Source of the DNA: a virus | Direction: 5' to 3' (one strand) | IMG/VR virus record: IMGVR_UViG_3300030294_000155 | Span: 1 to 24,647 of that record | Length of the DNA: 24,647 nt | In this document: positions 1,948 to 24,626 of the stretch, piece by piece | How positions within the stretch are numbered: the stretch's first letter is position 1 | How the letters are laid out: the number at the start of each line of letters is the position of its first letter | Translations under genes and position numbers: made by a program | The notes under the pieces: model-generated | Databases searched by the model: none | Told to the model about the DNA's origin: nothing | What the model saw: the letters and a program-made list of their open reading frames with translations, nothing else

Positions 1948-2105
1948 TGGAGAAATTTATATGTCCTAAGTGTGGTAAAGAATGGAGTAAAGACTTGTGG
2001 TATCAAAAATCTTTAAGTTATCAAAATTTTTTATATATGACATCAAGTGGTGGTAAAGAAATTGAAAATTGTTGTTTTAATTGTGGATATGTGGAGAAAA
2101 AATGA
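1947..2105 (+). CDS. small zinc-ribbon protein
   Basis: 52 aa. Two Cys pairs, CPKC near residues 6-9 and CFNC near residues 44-47, are spaced as in a zinc ribbon. An open frame extends upstream to 1896, but the ATG at 1947 is preferred because it follows GGAGGG at the usual distance and overlaps the previous stop. The longer version would read through the preceding gene. Function unknown; such mini zinc ribbons usually bind nucleic acid or a protein partner. Its stop overlaps the next start (ATGA). Confidence 0.75.
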   Translation: MEKFICPKCGKEWSKDLWYQKSLSYQNFLYMTSSGGKEIENCCFNCGYVEKK

Positions 2106-2329
2106 AAATAAGTGAATTTAGAAAAATAGTTGATAAAATAGATAATCAAGCAAAAGAATATGGTATTGATAGAGATGTTACAATCGCATTATTATCAACA
2201 TCTTACGGGAAATCATCTAGTAATTTTTCTGATGTATCATCTATTGAAGCAGGATTCGGATTGACTGGATTTGAAATAACAATTTTTGCGGAAGATTATT
2301 TAACTAAATTTAAGGATAAAAATAAATGA
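2102..2329 (+). CDS. hypothetical protein
   Basis: 75 aa, not recognised. The start at 2102 is chosen over the in-frame upstream codon at 2081 because it overlaps the previous stop as ATGA and has a GGAG site just upstream. The N-terminal half (ISEFRKIVDKIDNQAKEYGI) looks helical, and the middle is Ser-rich (SSYGKSSSNFSDVSS pattern). No cysteines or motifs suggest a function. It ends in an ATGA overlap with the following membrane-protein gene, so it sits inside a tightly coupled string of small genes. Confidence 0.7.
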   Translation: MKISEFRKIVDKIDNQAKEYGIDRDVTIALLSTSYGKSSSNFSDVSSIEAGFGLTGFEITIFAEDYLTKFKDKNK

Positions 2330-2529
2330 AAAAATTTAAAAAGTTAGATATTAAAGATAAGGTATTTGTTATAACCGTAGTATTACAGATTATATTTTTT
2401 ATAACATTTGCAATCCTTGCTATCGTAAAAGGTAATGTATTTTTAGTTACATTGGGTGGTATTGGTCAATTAATCATATATCTTATAGGATTAATTATTA
2501 GCGTATTAATTAGTGTATTTGAAGAATAA
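2326..2529 (+). CDS. small two-helix membrane protein
   Basis: 67 aa. A Lys-rich N-terminus (KKFKKLDIKDK) precedes two hydrophobic helices at about residues 12-34 and 40-64, separated by a short polar Lys-Gly-Asn turn, followed by a Glu-Glu end. The pattern suggests an inner-membrane hairpin with the Lys-rich end in the cytoplasm. It overlaps the preceding gene by ATGA and has no strong ribosome site of its own, so coupling is likely. Family unknown; it is too unlike a holin, and too far from any lysis gene, to make that call. Confidence 0.7.
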   Translation: MKKFKKLDIKDKVFVITVVLQIIFFITFAILAIVKGNVFLVTLGGIGQLIIYLIGLIISVLISVFEE

Positions 2530-2564
2530 AACTTGAATTTTATACAAGAGAGGATAATGAAAAA

Positions 2565-2771
2565 GTGAATGAATATATGATTTCAGAAAGTAAAAATGTA
2601 TCAGTAAAGATGATAAAAAAAGGTGACGAAAAATTGATAAGTTGTAAACATGATGAGTTAATATGTTCTTCATATACCGTAGATGGTGGTATCCTAGTTT
2701 GGATTTGCCCTAAATGTCATAGTTGGTTTCAAACATCTGTTCCAGTAAAAAAATTGAAAAGGATAAAATGA
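2565..2771 (+). CDS. small Cys/His (zinc-ribbon) protein
   Basis: 68 aa from a GTG start, or 64 aa from the in-frame ATG at 2577. The GTG lies about 11 nt after AGAGAGG and is slightly favoured. Potential zinc ligands are CKHDELIC around residues 27-34 and CPKCH around residues 48-52, giving a four-Cys ribbon with spare His. The C-terminus is basic (VKKLKRIK), which would suit nucleic-acid contact. Function unknown. The next start lies one base after the stop. Confidence 0.65.
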   Translation: MNEYMISESKNVSVKMIKKGDEKLISCKHDELICSSYTVDGGILVWICPKCHSWFQTSVPVKKLKRIK

Positions 2772-2772
2772 T

Positions 2773-3150
2773 ATGGAAGAAGTATTTAAAGCAAAAGGCA
2801 GAATAATTTTTAGATATACTAATACTGGTATTCAGACTCAAACATATGATAGAGATTACTATCTTAGACAAAATGATAACTACTCTGACTATGTTGATTT
2901 TATTTATGGAAGTCATTTTAGTCGTAGTATTTATGATTTAATGACAGGTAAAGAATTTTATAAAGAAGTGGATTCTGAATGTTTTATTGATTATGATGGA
3001 TCAATTGCAGATGTTTTTGTTGACGGATACCTAAGTAATTTAGGATTAGCGTATAAAGAAATTTGCCAAGGTGATTTTTTAGTAGATGGAGAGGTATGGC
3101 TTGAAATGTGTAATAGTCGTGATATTCAAGTTAATTGGGCAAACAAATAA
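2773..3150 (+). CDS. hypothetical acidic protein
   Basis: 125 aa, not recognised. Rich in Asp and Tyr (DRDYYL, DNYSDYVDFIYGSH, FIDYDGSIADVFVDGYLSNLG), soluble and strongly acidic. The single cysteines are not paired, so metal binding is not suggested. The ribosome site AAAGGAT lies inside the end of the previous gene. Its TAA overlaps the ATG of the following gene (TAATG). Confidence 0.7.
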   Translation: MEEVFKAKGRIIFRYTNTGIQTQTYDRDYYLRQNDNYSDYVDFIYGSHFSRSIYDLMTGKEFYKEVDSECFIDYDGSIADVFVDGYLSNLGLAYKEICQGDFLVDGEVWLEMCNSRDIQVNWANK

Positions 3151-3476
3151 TGGAAAGTATATTTAAAGGTAACTATTTTCATTTCATATGCCCACGTTTT
3201 ATTGATTTTGAAAGTCTACATGCCTATACTAACCAAGAAAAACAAAAATGTTTAGAGAGTCTATGTAAGAGTGCTATTGATGTCCCTATTATTAAAGATG
3301 ATGTTGTTATTGGAGTAATTAAAGATTGCCATATTGCAAAAGGGGGAGATAGATTAGTATATGGTGGAATAATTTGGGATAATGTGTTACAAGAAATAAT
3401 AGTTGGCAAAGATAATAAACCTAAAATATCTTCTATAATTCTAAATAAGAATGGGGATATAAATAATGGGAGATAA
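3150..3476 (+). CDS. hypothetical protein
   Basis: 108 aa, not recognised. A TTG at 3135 is in frame, but the ATG at 3150 fits better: it forms the TAATG overlap with the preceding gene, like its neighbours. Residues about 47-75 (VPIIKDDVVIGVIKDCHIAKGGDRLVYGG, in pieces) read like beta strands with a Gly turn. The end of the gene overlaps the start of the next small zinc-ribbon gene in another frame, consistent with translational coupling. Confidence 0.65.
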   Translation: MESIFKGNYFHFICPRFIDFESLHAYTNQEKQKCLESLCKSAIDVPIIKDDVVIGVIKDCHIAKGGDRLVYGGIIWDNVLQEIIVGKDNKPKISSIILNKNGDINNGR

Positions 3477-11511: not shown

Positions 11512-12165
11512 ATTAAGGATTTATTTGGTCGTATATATATGATTACTAATATAGAAAATAACATGAAATATATAGGTCAAACAATAGGTAGTATAGACAA
11601 AAGATGGAACTTACATAAAAATAAATGTAGTCATTGTTTAGAATTACATAATGATATAGAAAAATATGGTGACTATTCGTTTGTAATAAAAGAGATTGAT
11701 ATCGCATATTCGCAAGATGAACTAGACACAAAGGAAATATATTGGATTCACAAAGAAAACACAATATATCCAAATGGATATAATAAACAATTTGGGGGAT
11801 TATGTGGAACACTATGTGAAAATTCAAGAAGCAAAATGGGTAAAAAGGGTAAATTACATTGGGGTTATGGAGAACATAGAACCAATGAAGAAAAATTAAA
11901 AATTAGTAATAGCAAAAAAGGAAAATGTAAAGCAGAAAATAATCCATTTTATGGAAAACATCATTCAGAAGAAAGCAAACAAAAAATAAGAGACTCTAAA
12001 AATACTAAAAAGGTTATTTGTTTAGAAACAGGAGATGTTTTTTTATCATCTAGGGATGCTCAAAATAAAACTGGAATTAAAAATATATCAAAAGTTTGTA
12101 AACATGAAAGAAAATCCGCAGGAGATAAACATTGGGAGTATATAGGTGCAGATGATGGTGAGTGA
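11512..12165 (+). CDS. GIY-YIG homing endonuclease (start codon uncertain)
   Basis: 208 aa from ATG 11539, or 217 aa from an ATT at 11512. The ATG would leave out the GIY strand: the residues just before it, LFGRIYMITN, are the expected first motif, and KYIGQT is the second. No ATG, GTG or TTG exists upstream in frame after the TGA at 11503, so the gene uses a rare ATT (GGGGAT lies 8 nt before it) or makes a truncated product. The linker has NUMOD3-like repeats (HRTNEEKLKISNSKKG, then HHSEESKQKIRDSKN) and a NUMOD1-like end (KKVICLETGDVFLSSRDAQ). It is free-standing between nuclease and primase genes and overlaps the primase start by about 11 nt. Confidence 0.8.
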   Translation: MKDLFGRIYMITNIENNMKYIGQTIGSIDKRWNLHKNKCSHCLELHNDIEKYGDYSFVIKEIDIAYSQDELDTKEIYWIHKENTIYPNGYNKQFGGLCGTLCENSRSKMGKKGKLHWGYGEHRTNEEKLKISNSKKGKCKAENNPFYGKHHSEESKQKIRDSKNTKKVICLETGDVFLSSRDAQNKTGIKNISKVCKHERKSAGDKHWEYIGADDGE

Positions 12166-14140: not shown

Positions 14141-14176
14141 CAACAAAAATTTACATATAAGGGGATGATTTTATAT

Positions 14177-14956
14177 ATGAATGTAGAATATTATAAAAAT
14201 AAATATATTGGATTACATAATAAAAATATACAAAATTTAGATATGGAAATTATAGAATATAATTCATACGATAATATTTTAATTAAATTTGAAGATGGTA
14301 CTATCGTGAGTAGCTTAATCAATATTTTCAACAATGGCAGAATTTTAAATAAAAATATGCCAGAAATATATGATAAATATTTTCTTGGATACGGAGAATA
14401 TAGTGCTAAAAAGGAAAATGGATATTCAACATGGATGCATATTTTGCACAGAGTTAATATAGATAAGAATAGTAGTGATCATAGAGAAAAATCATATATA
14501 GGTTGTGATATTTGTAAAGAATGGTATAATTTTCAAAATTTTGCCAAATGGTTTAAAGAAAATTATTACACTGTAAATGATGAGAAAATGTGTATTGATA
14601 AGGATTTACTTATACATAATAATAAAATTTATTCTCCAAAAACTTGTATCTTTGTGCCAGAATATATTAATCTAATTTTAGCAAAATCAAAATCATCAAG
14701 AGGAACATTACCAATAGGTGTTAGATCATATACTAGTAAAAACACTATTAAATATATGGCTTATATGAAACAAGGTAGAAATAATAATAGAAAACAAATT
14801 TCTCTTGGAATATATAAGGATCAAAAATCAGCATTTATGGCTTATAAAATAAATAAAGAAAATTATATTAAACAAATAGCTAATGAATATAAAAATAAAA
14901 TACCAGATAAATTATACAATATTATGTATAATTACCAAATAAATATTGACGATTAA
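14177..14956 (+). CDS. HNH/AP2-type homing endonuclease
   Basis: 259 aa. ATG 14177 is chosen over 14165 because AAGGGG would touch the latter. The central part GCDICKEWYNFQNFAKWFKENYY at about 108-130 (given as a region), followed by CIDKDLLI and KIYSPKTCIFVP, is the HNH-like core common in phage homing enzymes. Residues about 176-235 resemble an AP2 DNA-binding domain: GVRSYTSKNTIKYMAYMK, then ISLGIYKDQKSAFMAYK. It would cut a specific site in rival phage DNA to spread itself. It is free-standing, placed directly before the polymerase gene, and its leader resembles the polymerase gene's leader. Confidence 0.8.
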   Translation: MNVEYYKNKYIGLHNKNIQNLDMEIIEYNSYDNILIKFEDGTIVSSLINIFNNGRILNKNMPEIYDKYFLGYGEYSAKKENGYSTWMHILHRVNIDKNSSDHREKSYIGCDICKEWYNFQNFAKWFKENYYTVNDEKMCIDKDLLIHNNKIYSPKTCIFVPEYINLILAKSKSSRGTLPIGVRSYTSKNTIKYMAYMKQGRNNNRKQISLGIYKDQKSAFMAYKINKENYIKQIANEYKNKIPDKLYNIMYNYQINIDD

Positions 14957-20269: not shown

Positions 20270-21078
20270 TGATATCGCAAGAAATGACAGTGGAAGATTG
20301 GTTAGGAACTGACAATACCCTTGGAATAGATATTTGGAATACCAAATATAGAAACAAGAATGAAAGTTTCGTTGAATGGTTAGATCGTATATCTAATCAT
20401 AATGAAGAACTTAAACAATTAATTATTAGTAAGAAGTTTTTATTTGGTGGAAGAATCTTGTCAAATAGAGGACTAAATAAAGATGGTGAAAAAGTTACAT
20501 ATAGCAATTGTTACGTGGTTACACCACCAGAGGATAATATTGAATCTATATTTGAGTGTGCAAGCAAATTAGCAAGAACGTTTAGTTATGGTGGTGGTTG
20601 TGGAATTGATATTTCAAAACTTTCACCAAGGGGTGCTAAAGTTAATAATACAGCTAAAGAGACATCTGGTGCGGTATCATTTATGGACTTATACTCATTG
20701 GTTACTGGATTAATAGGTCAAAATGGTAGACGAGGGGCATTAATGATCTCGATTGACTGTAATCATCCAGATTTAGAAGAGTTTATCGACATTAAGTCTG
20801 ACCTAAATAGAATCACAAAAGCCAATATTTCAATTCGTGTCACAAATGAATTTTTAGAAGCAGTAAAAACAAAATCTAATTATGATTTAACATTTACTAG
20901 AAAAGAAACAGGTGAAACAATAACAAAAACCGTAAACGCTTATGAAATATTCAAGAAATTTGCAACAATGAATTGGAACTATGCCGAACCTGCATTTTTG
21001 TATTGGGACAGAATTAAAGATTGGAATTTACTTTCTAATACAAAAGAGTTTGAATACGCAGGAACTAACCCTTGTGCT
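20269..21078 (+). CDS. nrdJ: class II (B12-dependent) ribonucleotide reductase, exon 1
   Basis: First 270 codons of an 800-residue spliced protein. Blocks: FLFGGRILSNRG at 57-68, YSNCYVV with the redox Cys81, LARTFSYGGGCGIDIS, GRRGALMISIDCNHPDLEEFI (given as a region near 160), ITKANISIRVTN, and GTNPCA at 265-270. The last residues are the first half of the N-P-C-x-E active site: Asn267 and the radical-bearing Cys269. The coding frame hits TGA directly after Ala270; the Glu that completes the motif is 308 nt downstream. The enzyme reduces ribonucleotides using adenosylcobalamin, so the host must supply B12. The ATG overlaps the kinase stop codon. Confidence 0.93.
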
Positions 21079-21386
21079 TGATTTTTGGGCGCAAGTAAAA
21101 CATTCCGTAAAATCGATGAACCCTAAGTTATAAAATATGGGAATATCGAGAACCCACTGCATCATAGGGGTTTGTAACGCATAGATGGTGAGCGATATGA
21201 AAGCAATAATCCATCCAAGAGTACGGAACTAACAATTTTTAACATCACTCCCATGATGTTAAAAATTGTTAGAAAATATATGCTAGACTGGTCTGAATTG
21301 ACAGACGTATCGTTTAATTGGGTAAAGAAAACGTATGAGAGAAATCTCCAGAAGTAAGGGATAAAAAGCCTTTACGACAATATTCG
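21079..21386 (+). ncRNA. ORF-less group I-type intron in nrdJ
   Basis: 308 nt between the codons for NPCA and EEPLPAGGSC, so exact removal restores the reductase. P1 can be drawn: exon end CTTGTGCT (21071-21078) pairs over 8 bp with GGCGCAAG (21088-21095), and the last exon U faces G, the required U-G at a 5' splice site. The intron ends in G (21386). The exon sequence AAGAA at 21388-21392 can pair with the U run 21082-21086 as a P10. Other helices: a perfect 19-bp hairpin (21229-21247/21254-21272), GTCTG/CAGAC (21291-21306), GAGA-GAAA-TCTC (21337-21348), GTAAGGG/CCTTTAC (21354-21375). The P3-P7 core was not resolved. No reading frame of note. Confidence 0.85.
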
Positions 21387-22979
21387 GAAGAACCTTTGCC
21401 CGCAGGAGGAAGTTGTTTACTTGGCAGTATCAACCTTTCAGAATTTGTCAAAGATAACGATTTTGATTTTGATGGATTTAAACACACTGTTGATGTATCC
21501 GTTAAGGCACTTAATGATATCTTAGAAGAGGGTTTACCACTTCATCCATTGCAAGAACAAAGAGATAGTGTAGCAAAATGGAGACAAATCGGGTTAGGAA
21601 TGTTTGGATTAGCTGATCTATTAATTAAACTAGGTATTACATATGGAGATAATAATTCAATTTTTTTATGTGATAAAATCGGGAAAATTATGATTAACCA
21701 AGCATTGCAAACATCAGCTATGTTAGCCAAAGAATATGGTGCTTTTCCTGCATGTAATATTGAAGAAATTATGTCAACTGACTTTTTCAAAGATAATGCA
21801 ACCAACGAAACTAAAATGTTTGTTAAAACTTATGGATTAAGAAACTCTCAATTACTTACAATTGCACCTACTGGTACGCTATCTACTATGCTTAGAATAT
21901 CTGGTGGTATAGAACCTATATTCGCAAATTCATATGAGCGCACGACACAATCATTACATGGCAAAGATGTAATTTATAAAGTATATACACCAATTGTAGA
22001 ACAATATCTTAAAGACCATAATATAACTGATGAAAAAGATTTGCCAAAATATTTTATTACATCACAGAAATTACATTATACAAATCGTATTAATATGCAA
22101 TCAACTTGGCAACGTCATATCGATGCATCTATAAGTTCAACCGTAAATGTTCCTAATGAATTTACTATTGAGAACGTAGAAGATTTATATATGTATGGAT
22201 ATACAATGGGATTAAAAGGTATTACAATTTACAGAGATGGATGTAAAAGAAGTGGTGTTCTTTCAACGGCAGATTCAACTAAGACAGAAGAAGCTGAAAC
22301 TAAAGTTGAAGACGATCAAGAACAAGAAAATTTCTTAAAACGTGGTGATATTCTTTTAGTAAGTGACGATGAAATTGGTAAAAAACGTGATCTTGTAACT
22401 GGATGTGGTACATTACATTGTAACGCTTGGTTCGATCCAGAGACAGGAAATTTGCTTGAAACATACTTTAGCAAGGGTTCAACTGGTGGATGTTTAAACT
22501 CATTAACAGGGCTTTCTCGTATGATTTCTTTAAGTGCAAGACTTGGTGGAGATATCCACACTATTATTGATCAGTTAAACAGTTGTGGTATATGCCCATC
22601 ATATCATGATAGAACTAGAACACTACACGACACATCAAAAGGTACTTGTTGCCCTGTAGCAATTGGAAACGCACTATTAGATATGTACAAAGATGTACGT
22701 AGTGATTTAGGATTAGATGATGATGAAGACGAAGATGAAGATAATTCAGATAAGATAGATATTGAGAGCGTAGAAGAAATGAATAAAGCGGTTAAAAATA
22801 TCTCAAAGATCACAATTAAAAATGCTGAAATTATCGGAAATGTTTTAAAATCTATTAAGCCTAAATTAGTATCAGAACAAGATTTAATTGACAATGATAT
22901 CTGTCCTCAATGTGGAGATAAATTATTACATAGTGGTGGTTGTATTCAGTGTAGTTGTGGTTGGAGCAAATGTCTATAA
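21387..22979 (+). CDS. nrdJ: class II ribonucleotide reductase, exon 2
   Basis: 530 codons joined in frame to exon 1. It begins EEPLPAGGSCLLGSINLSEF, supplying the active-site Glu. Blocks typical of the alpha-barrel follow: QIGLGMFGLADLLIKLGITYG (given as a region near 21592), LLTIAPTGTLSTML, ITIYRDGCKRSGVL. Then a TSCPD domain (CGTLHCNAWFDPETG, STGGCLNSLTGLSRM), a very acidic stretch DDDEDEDEDN, and a C-terminal cysteine module CPQCGDKL...CIQCSCGWSKC for metal binding or redox relay. The TSCPD domain and NPCxEP signature point to NrdJ rather than class I NrdA/E. Unspliced RNA could yield this part only from an internal codon such as TTG 21396, which would lack the active-site Asn and Cys. 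Confidence 0.93.
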   Translation, partial: EEPLPAGGSCLLGSINLSEFVKDNDFDFDGFKHTVDVSVKALNDILEEGLPLHPLQEQRDSVAKWRQIGLGMFGLADLLIKLGITYGDNNSIFLCDKIGKIMINQALQTSAMLAKEYGAFPACNIEEIMSTDFFKDNATNETKMFVKTYGLRNSQLLTIAPTGTLSTMLRISGGIEPIFANSYERTTQSLHGKDVIYKVYTPIVEQYLKDHNITDEKDLPKYFITSQKLHYTNRINMQSTWQRHIDASISSTVNVPNEFTIENVEDLYMYGYTMGLKGITIYRDGCKRSGVLSTADSTKTEEAETKVEDDQEQENFLKRGDILLVSDDEIGKKRDLVTGCGTLHCNAWFDPETGNLLETYFSKGSTGGCLNSLTGLSRMISLSARLGGDIHTIIDQLNSCGICPSYHDRTRTLHDTSKGTCCPVAIGNALLDMYKDVRSDLGLDDDEDEDEDNSDKIDIESVEEMNKAVKNISKITIKNAEIIGNVLKSIKPKLVSEQDLIDNDICPQCGDKLLHSGGCIQCSCGWSKCL

Positions 22980-23450: not shown

Positions 23451-24626
23451 ATGCCTAAACTTTATATATATAATGTAGGTGATATTGTTGAAACTAAAAC
23501 TGGATATATTAAAATATTAAAACAAATTAAAATACAAAAGAAAGATTGTACAATTAATGGTTATGATTATCAGTGTAATATTGACGGAAACATTGGAATA
23601 ATCAACGAATATGATTTATTATTAAAAAAAGGTTGTCCTGTATGTTCTAATAGAAAAATTCTTGTTGGATATAATGATATGTGGACAACTAATCCAAATT
23701 TAACTTCGAAATTATTAAACAAAGAAGATGGATATAAATATACAGAAAAATGTGGTACAAAAGTTGATTGGGTATGTCCAATATGCGGAAATATTATTCA
23801 AAATAAATCTATAGAAAATACGAATAAACAAGGTTTGTCGTGTCCAAAATGTTCTGATGGTATATCTTATCCAGAAAAAATTATGTATAACTTGTTAAAG
23901 CAATTAAATATTAAATTTAAATATCAATATTCACCATTATGGTGCAAATATGAATTAAATAATAAAACAAAGTATGGAGTTTATGATTTTTATATACAGG
24001 AAAGTAATTTAATTGTAGAAACAGATGGTGGTTGGCATTATGAGGACAATAATCTTACAGATAACACATTAGAAAATGTTTTAGATATAGATAGAATAAA
24101 AGATAAAATAGCAAAAGAACATGGAATTGAAATTGTGAGAATTGATTGTAAAAAGAGTGAATTTGAATACATAAAAAATAATACTATATCTAGTAAATTA
24201 AATAATATATTTAATTTACTAGATATAGATTGGTTAAATATAAATAAACATAGTCAAAAATCAATTATTTATGAAATATGTAAATATAAAAACAAACACT
24301 CTAATATGACAACAAAAGAAATTAGTGAAATTTTTAATATAAATTCACATACAGTATGGAAATATTTAAAACTAGGCAACGAATTTAAATGGTGTAACTA
24401 TAACATATCAAAAGAGCGTAAAAATGTTGGTATAAAAAATGGAAGAAAAATAATATGTTTAACTAATGGAATTATATATAACTCATGTAAAAAAGCTAGT
24501 GATATTTATAGGATTAACGTTTCTGGAATAATTAATTGCTGTAGACACAGACAAAGATATTCTGGAAAGTCAAAAAATGGAGTATCATTAGGTTGGATGT
24601 ATTTATCAGAATACTTAGGAGAATAA
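23451..24626 (+). CDS. homing endonuclease, EDxHD/Vsr-like fold with zinc ribbons
   Basis: 391 aa. N-terminal cysteine pairs CPVC at 62-65, CPIC at 109-112 and CPKC at 131-134 form zinc-ribbon repeats. The nuclease core is at about 140-235: YDFYIQESNLIVETDGGWHY with Asp179, Glu190, Asp192 and His196, then DIDRIKDKIAKEHGIEIVRID, a pattern of the Vsr-like/EDxHD homing family represented by I-Bth0305I. A helix-turn-helix (TTKEISEIFNINSHTVWKYL, near 285) and a NUMOD1-like end (RKIICLTNGIIYNSCKKASD) give DNA specificity. It is free-standing between dut and the next gene. AGGAG in the end of dut serves as ribosome site. Its first residues MPKLY resemble the next gene's MSKLY. Confidence 0.78.
   Translation: MPKLYIYNVGDIVETKTGYIKILKQIKIQKKDCTINGYDYQCNIDGNIGIINEYDLLLKKGCPVCSNRKILVGYNDMWTTNPNLTSKLLNKEDGYKYTEKCGTKVDWVCPICGNIIQNKSIENTNKQGLSCPKCSDGISYPEKIMYNLLKQLNIKFKYQYSPLWCKYELNNKTKYGVYDFYIQESNLIVETDGGWHYEDNNLTDNTLENVLDIDRIKDKIAKEHGIEIVRIDCKKSEFEYIKNNTISSKLNNIFNLLDIDWLNINKHSQKSIIYEICKYKNKHSNMTTKEISEIFNINSHTVWKYLKLGNEFKWCNYNISKERKNVGIKNGRKIICLTNGIIYNSCKKASDIYRINVSGIINCCRHRQRYSGKSKNGVSLGWMYLSEYLGE

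Follow-up and report, generated by a model that had tools for sequence, protein, structure and literature searches.

The window, a stretch of 24,647 nucleotides of viral DNA, contains a phage gene for a class II (B12-type) ribonucleotide reductase (RNR) that is interrupted by a 308-nt insert between the residues NPCA and EEPLP. The borders of the insert were placed by comparison with protein profiles and with an uninterrupted homologue. On the NCBIfam profile TIGR02504 (NrdJ_Z), the last residue of exon 1 falls on position 283 and the first of exon 2 on position 284; in PRK08665, the corresponding positions are 281 and 282. TIGR02504 spans the junction, and either exon alone stayed below its whole-protein cut-off. 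The homologue of Clostridioides phage LIBA6276 (L025), with 65% identity to the exon 1 part and 43% identity to the exon 2 part, is uninterrupted: exon 1 ends at L025 position 2753 and exon 2 starts at 2754. These results agree with an earlier note on this DNA, which had described an NPCxE motif split by a 308-nt gap and resumed in frame at EEPLPAGGSC. The range given there, 21071 to 21392, contains the insert and also includes exon bases on both sides; the intron itself occupies 21079 to 21386 (Table 1). The NPC Cys aligns with that of Thermotoga NrdJ (1xje), and the break falls between this Cys and the following Glu. We take the NPC Cys to carry the radical and the Glu, two positions after it, to be catalytic.

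Table 1. Features of the interrupted reductase gene and helices of its insert (positions in the window)
Feature	Start	End	Strand	Description
Exon 1, class II ribonucleotide reductase	20269	21078	+	270 codons, C-terminal NPCA; PF02867; TIGR02504, residues 31-270 match profile 44-283
P1	21071	21095	+	Exon 21071-21078 with guide 21088-21095; 8 bp; U·G at splice site (21078)
Group I intron	21079	21386	+	308 nt; longest open reading frame, 59 codons
In-frame TGA	21079	21081	+	First intron codon, directly after NPCA
P3	21103	21228	+	21103-21109 with 21222-21228; 7 bp; both-side changes in 5/7 pairs; 100% paired
P4 and P5	21113	21149	+	P4, 21113-21118 with 21144-21149; P5, 21121-21123 with 21139-21141; both-side changes in 5/9 pairs; 95.1% paired
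P6 hairpin	21150	21173	+	21150-21155 with 21168-21173; from minimum-energy fold alone
P7	21177	21284	+	21177 and 21179-21183 with 21279-21284; 6 pairs; 100% paired; bulged C at 21178
P7.1	21184	21215	+	21184-21188 with 21211-21215; both-side changes in 3/5 pairs; 100% paired
P8 hairpin	21229	21272	+	First 5 pairs: 4 vary on both sides, 92.2% paired; site of GIY-YIG gene in relatives
P9	21288	21351	+	21288-21291 with 21348-21351, further hairpins inside; both-side changes in 3/4 pairs
3' hairpin, conserved	21354	21375	+	21354-21360 with 21369-21375; both-side changes in 6/7 pairs
Intron terminal G	21386	21386	+	G at 3' end
Exon 2	21387	22979	+	530 aa plus stop; N-terminal EEPLPAGGSC; frame kept with exon 1

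Related introns were found at the identical base in 11 other RNR loci from independent records, which allowed the splice site helix to be examined across 12 introns. The 8-bp P1 proposed in the earlier note was recovered, with all eight pairs forming in the window, and the U·G pair between the last exon base and the guide is present in 12/12 introns. Compensating changes occur at P1 pairs 2, 4, and 7. Pair 7, to which the Pro codon contributes its third base, occurs as U-A in seven introns, A-U in three, G-C in one, and broken in one. The exon of L135 encodes Gly in place of Ala, and its P1 pairs 2 and 4 are changed to match. Departures from complete pairing comprise a U-U mismatch at pair 4 in five of the 12 rows and the loss of pairs 7 and 8 in L248. 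The intron-final G, likewise proposed before, was found in 11/11 introns at this base with an available 3' end (L035 is cut off). A P10 helix, previously suggested as possible, would be imperfect: by eye, the first base of exon 2 is unpaired and is followed by five pairs.

The ribozyme core was evaluated in an alignment of 18 introns without internal genes, the window included, with helices set by hand and P3, P4, P5, P7, P7.1, P8, P9, and the 3' hairpin scored. Candidates were matches to a pattern derived from the window's intron family in 60 viral contig stretches, plus L023 and L003. Seventeen were kept, nine were set aside as not intron-like, and 34 were set aside because no 5' core nearby or no 3' end was recognised (because they are truncated, contain an endonuclease, or are not introns); the remainder were removed as duplicates or as running off the contig. 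Standard pairs filled 97.9% of 772 cells. Changes on both sides were seen in 28 of 43 pairs, compared with at most 9 in slid controls and a mean of 13.4 in shuffles (0/500 reached 28), although these counts do not represent independent events because the rows are related. The covariation score was 0.482, versus 0.184 in shuffles and no more than 0.112 when partners were slid. P6 was left out of the count since the alignment is gapped there.

Within P7, the outer pair, which alternates between A-U and G-C, and the pair 21181-21281 vary on both sides. The putative guanosine-site pair, G21179-C21283 in the window, is G-C in 18/18 aligned introns, and the bulged base is C in the window and A or C across the rows. 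P7.1 follows the 5' strand of P7 and precedes the 3' strand of P3. P7.1 is a hallmark of IA group I introns. By this predicted helix the intron belongs to subgroup IA, an assignment made above the level of IA1, IA2, and IA3. The conserved 3' hairpin is common to introns of Staphylococcus, Listeria, and Clostridioides phages, and DNA resembling the 3' part of the intron is present in phages of several Gram-positive hosts. The helices follow the order of group I introns, with P3-P8 and P4-P6 domains and P7 crossing P3 (P6 from the fold only). Fold z-scores of the intron were -3.83 and -3.86, beyond what chance would give. Single-sequence folding did not yield P7, because P7 crosses P3, and the minimum-energy fold of the isolated intron mis-paired its ends; folding alone was set aside as proof of the core.

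This imperfect fold would also suit a decayed group I intron that has lost splicing and left a dead or split reductase. So would the lack of an endonuclease, as the window's 308 nt hold no homing endonuclease gene of their own (longest frame, 59 codons). However, the window's intron has kept its core helices and guanosine-site pair intact, and the two exons read through 800 codons without a stop, with the catalytic and C-terminal cysteine motifs retained. We consider decay very improbable.

A covariance model (R1) was built from 17 introns, with the window excluded and P7 unmodelled. It matched 21102 to 21286 with 112.1 bits (E = 1.9e-27), the only match in the 24,647-base window; part of this score is due to selection, since the training introns were chosen by a pattern of the window's own intron family, but that pattern fixes 17 bases and the score far exceeds their contribution. 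Each of the 11 same-site relatives given to R1 was matched, with scores between 107.2 bits (L094) and 29.0 bits (L147). It gave no match in the empty L025 locus, in T4 (L093), or in the intein-bearing loci L139, L107, and L137, nor at the RNR junctions occupied by the other intron classes.

Rfam, in contrast, was silent. RF00028 had no match in the window at its gathering score, nor at E values up to 10 on positions 20900 to 21500, and no group I match was reported by Rfam in 11 relatives either. The search for a group I core put forward in the earlier note thus failed with this model and succeeded through covariation and R1. T4 controls account for the miss: RF00028 scored the nrdB intron at 35.7 bits, below its cut-off of 50, and left td unreported, which indicates that the model is insensitive to phage IA introns and that matching it does not define a group I intron. 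It reported 0/5 members of the window's intron family. It did detect a second intron class described below (E = 9.3e-7 to 6.9e-4), with matches below threshold in L104, L112, and L132, and it was weak on a third class (E = 0.088). Phage IA introns may be widely unannotated. A whole set of phage introns is overlooked by the Rfam model, and gene callers will split such genes. Apart from the Rfam miss, nothing speaks for a different element, such as a group II intron, an IStron, or an assembly artefact. Rfam gave no group II match, the 308 nt contain no transposase frame, and introns of this type sit at the identical base in 11 further loci, which come from independent records. Group II introns and IStrons were dropped, as no feature of either was found, and this explanation as a whole, in practice ruled out by the covariation, P1, and the R1 match, is hardly credible.

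Taken together, P1, the P3-P9 core, the covariation in 18 introns, and the R1 match bear out the earlier interpretation as a group I intron, and we infer that the insert very probably cuts itself out of the RNA. The transcript would fold so that exon 1 pairs with the guide in P1, and guanosine would be bound at the P7 G-C pair. The RNA would then be cut after U21078 and U21078 joined to G21387. The joined frame would encode an 800-aa enzyme with NPCAEEPLP restored; from unspliced RNA, translation would stop at the TGA directly after NPCA. The earlier note had held splicing to be indispensable for any functional enzyme. Passages of a published account describe phage Aeh1 NrdA as functioning as two separate polypeptides (PMC3653736), and in view of this precedent the wording is slightly too absolute. 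The same precedent would favor a reductase assembled from two polypeptides with no splicing at all. Here, though, the first possible restart in exon 2 is a TTG at 21396, past the catalytic Glu, and the conserved ribozyme core in the intervening RNA would be superfluous. Since a product from this restart would lack the Glu, the need for splicing very probably holds, and assembly from two pieces is extremely unlikely. We are highly confident that the insert is a group I intron whose splicing restores the 800-aa reductase and which arose or spreads by homing or is moved in trans.

The introns at the same base differ mainly in what they carry. In Clostridioides phages pCD1602_4 (CP069348) and ES-S-0107-01 (CP067347), the gene, the base, the ribozyme type, and the 3' hairpin are the same as in the window, but their introns of 671 and 666 nt, respectively, have an HNH-type frame in the P5 loop (broken in CP067347), which the window intron lacks. 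The remaining nine, all matched by R1, come from IMG/VR loci L003, L035, L046, L094, L099, L135, L144, and L147 and from a Terrisporobacter metagenome-assembled genome (MAG; L248). Most of these introns carry a GIY-YIG gene in P8 or an HNH gene in P5, unlike that of the window. GIY-YIG in P8 was recognised in L003 (in pieces), L035, L046, L099, and L147 (by sequence similarity), and HNH-type frames in P5 were found in L022, L028 (broken), L144, and L248. Endonuclease-free introns at this site are those of the window, L094 (316 nt), and L135 (336 nt); the window copy is a minimal form. It could have arisen or be spreading by homing and have lost its endonuclease, or could have been moved by an endonuclease from elsewhere. 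The window intron is 86.5% identical to that of L003 over 148 nt, whereas identity in the flanks is 72.0% (962 nt) and 67.5% (1051 nt). Recent transfer was rejected as a proven explanation of this difference because ribozyme cores are constrained.

A candidate for an external endonuclease lies in the window itself. The free-standing GIY-YIG/NUMOD3 gene at 11539 to 12165, flanked by a nuclease-like gene and a primase/helicase gene, matched TIGR01453 (group I intron endonuclease) above its cut-off. Its product is 40.7% identical over 113 aa to the intron-borne GIY-YIG protein of L035, a resemblance that would allow homing in trans. Two further free-standing genes look like endonucleases by eye, at 14165 to 14956 (AP2/HNH-like) and 23451 to 24626 (DUF559/VSR-like); Pfam gave no match above cut-off for either.

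The use of this junction by other elements was surveyed in RNR genes retrieved with an alignment of six exon 2 proteins, five of them from interrupted genes. Eighty viral contig loci and 80 genome loci were obtained and six more added (one being the L120 contig and one already among the viral loci), so that 165 loci were examined. In this sample, which is skewed to kin of interrupted genes and includes near-copies, the junction was uninterrupted in 123 loci, interrupted in 38, and not judged in four. Interruptions were counted in 34 of the 80 viral loci (44 uninterrupted, two not judged) and in one of the 80 genome loci (78 uninterrupted, one not judged). Among the 34, nine have the window's intron type at the same base, five (L104, L105, L106, L112, and L132) have a second intron class nine bases downstream, and one (L123) has a third class. 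The other 19 hold in-frame inserts read as inteins, which start at the NPC Cys and leave Cys-Ala-Glu behind. Both other intron types and the inteins lie within about 12 nt of the window's insertion base. Three intein-like inserts were checked and have intein splicing domains together with LAGLIDADG or HNH domains. Inteins at NPC-x-E are not new, as some 380 additional positions (860 to 1244) stand at precisely this point of the archaeal-type profile PRK08332. Such inteins, of the PRK08332 type and in phages, interrupt the same codons as the window's intron but leave the protein rather than the RNA and are inserted three bases or more upstream. Judged from these comparisons of sequence, the NPC-x-E junction is a hotspot for introns and inteins.

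A tree was computed from 142 distinct reductases, with identical proteins and those shorter than 600 aa excluded. Its labels were 117 empty, 12 with the window's intron type, 10 with an intein, and two and one with the other classes. The distribution needs 21 label changes, 10 of them for the window's intron type, on a quick tree with weak deep branches in which gain and loss are indistinguishable. Close relatives are more telling. L135, which has the window's intron type, and L139, which has an intein, carry their inserts within four bases of each other, and their DNA identity is 94.9% downstream (4.7 kb) and 95.9% upstream (2.3 kb). Identity falls to 87.5% in the 343 bases immediately before the site, a dip that would suit co-conversion. 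Among Clostridioides phages, reductase proteins from intron-bearing and intron-free genes are 92 to 93% identical. Because near-identical phages differ in the insert at this site, homing and displacement are directly testable. It is conceivable, though we think it unlikely, that the active-site Cys and Glu codons are a contested landing site in phages, where unrelated elements able to remove themselves, namely inteins and group I introns of three types, replace each other. The window intron would then be moved in trans (e.g., by a free-standing endonuclease such as the GIY-YIG gene at 11539 to 12165) or be retained because reductase synthesis is gated by its splicing.

Phage RNR genes are well-documented carriers of group I introns. 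Parts of one paper place a pair of them close to conserved residues of Twort nrdE and tally 16 phage genomes with split RNR genes, including two nrdJ cases (PMC3653736), and excerpts of another describe RNR introns in Bastillevirinae (PMC11878797). That introns and inteins favor conserved sites is stated in sections of PMC2814812 and of a review (PMC3984707). As in the window, the introns in Twort nrdE, SPbeta bnrdE/bnrdF, Brochothrix A9 nrdE/nrdF, and Bastillevirinae lie near conserved RNR residues, according to portions of PMC3653736 and PMC11878797. These reside in class I reductases, whereas the window encodes class II, and the likeness covers intron type, gene, and proximity to conserved residues. 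In titles and abstract starts of the literature on nrdJ or RNR with group I introns or inteins, in which subscription journals are thinly covered, this junction does not appear. The intron is thus of a known kind, and what is new is a further member at an unusually busy site. With it, class II reductases gain a clean example of a group I intron that lacks an endonuclease, and the survey provides a dense natural case in which introns and inteins have selected identical active-site codons.

Some minor observations were made in the surveyed genes. The second-class introns of L104, L112, and L132 carry a related GIY-YIG gene. In a more distant viral reductase (L005), an intein-like insert at 1991 to 3419 was recognised by eye, starting from the same NPC Cys. 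This gene family is interrupted at a second place, in exon 1 near residue 154 (QNGRR|GALM region), in L099, L102, L112, L135, and L147. The four of these inserts that were read contain GATAGTC, a group I-like sequence, close to their 3' border, and two (L099 and L112) are weakly matched by R1.
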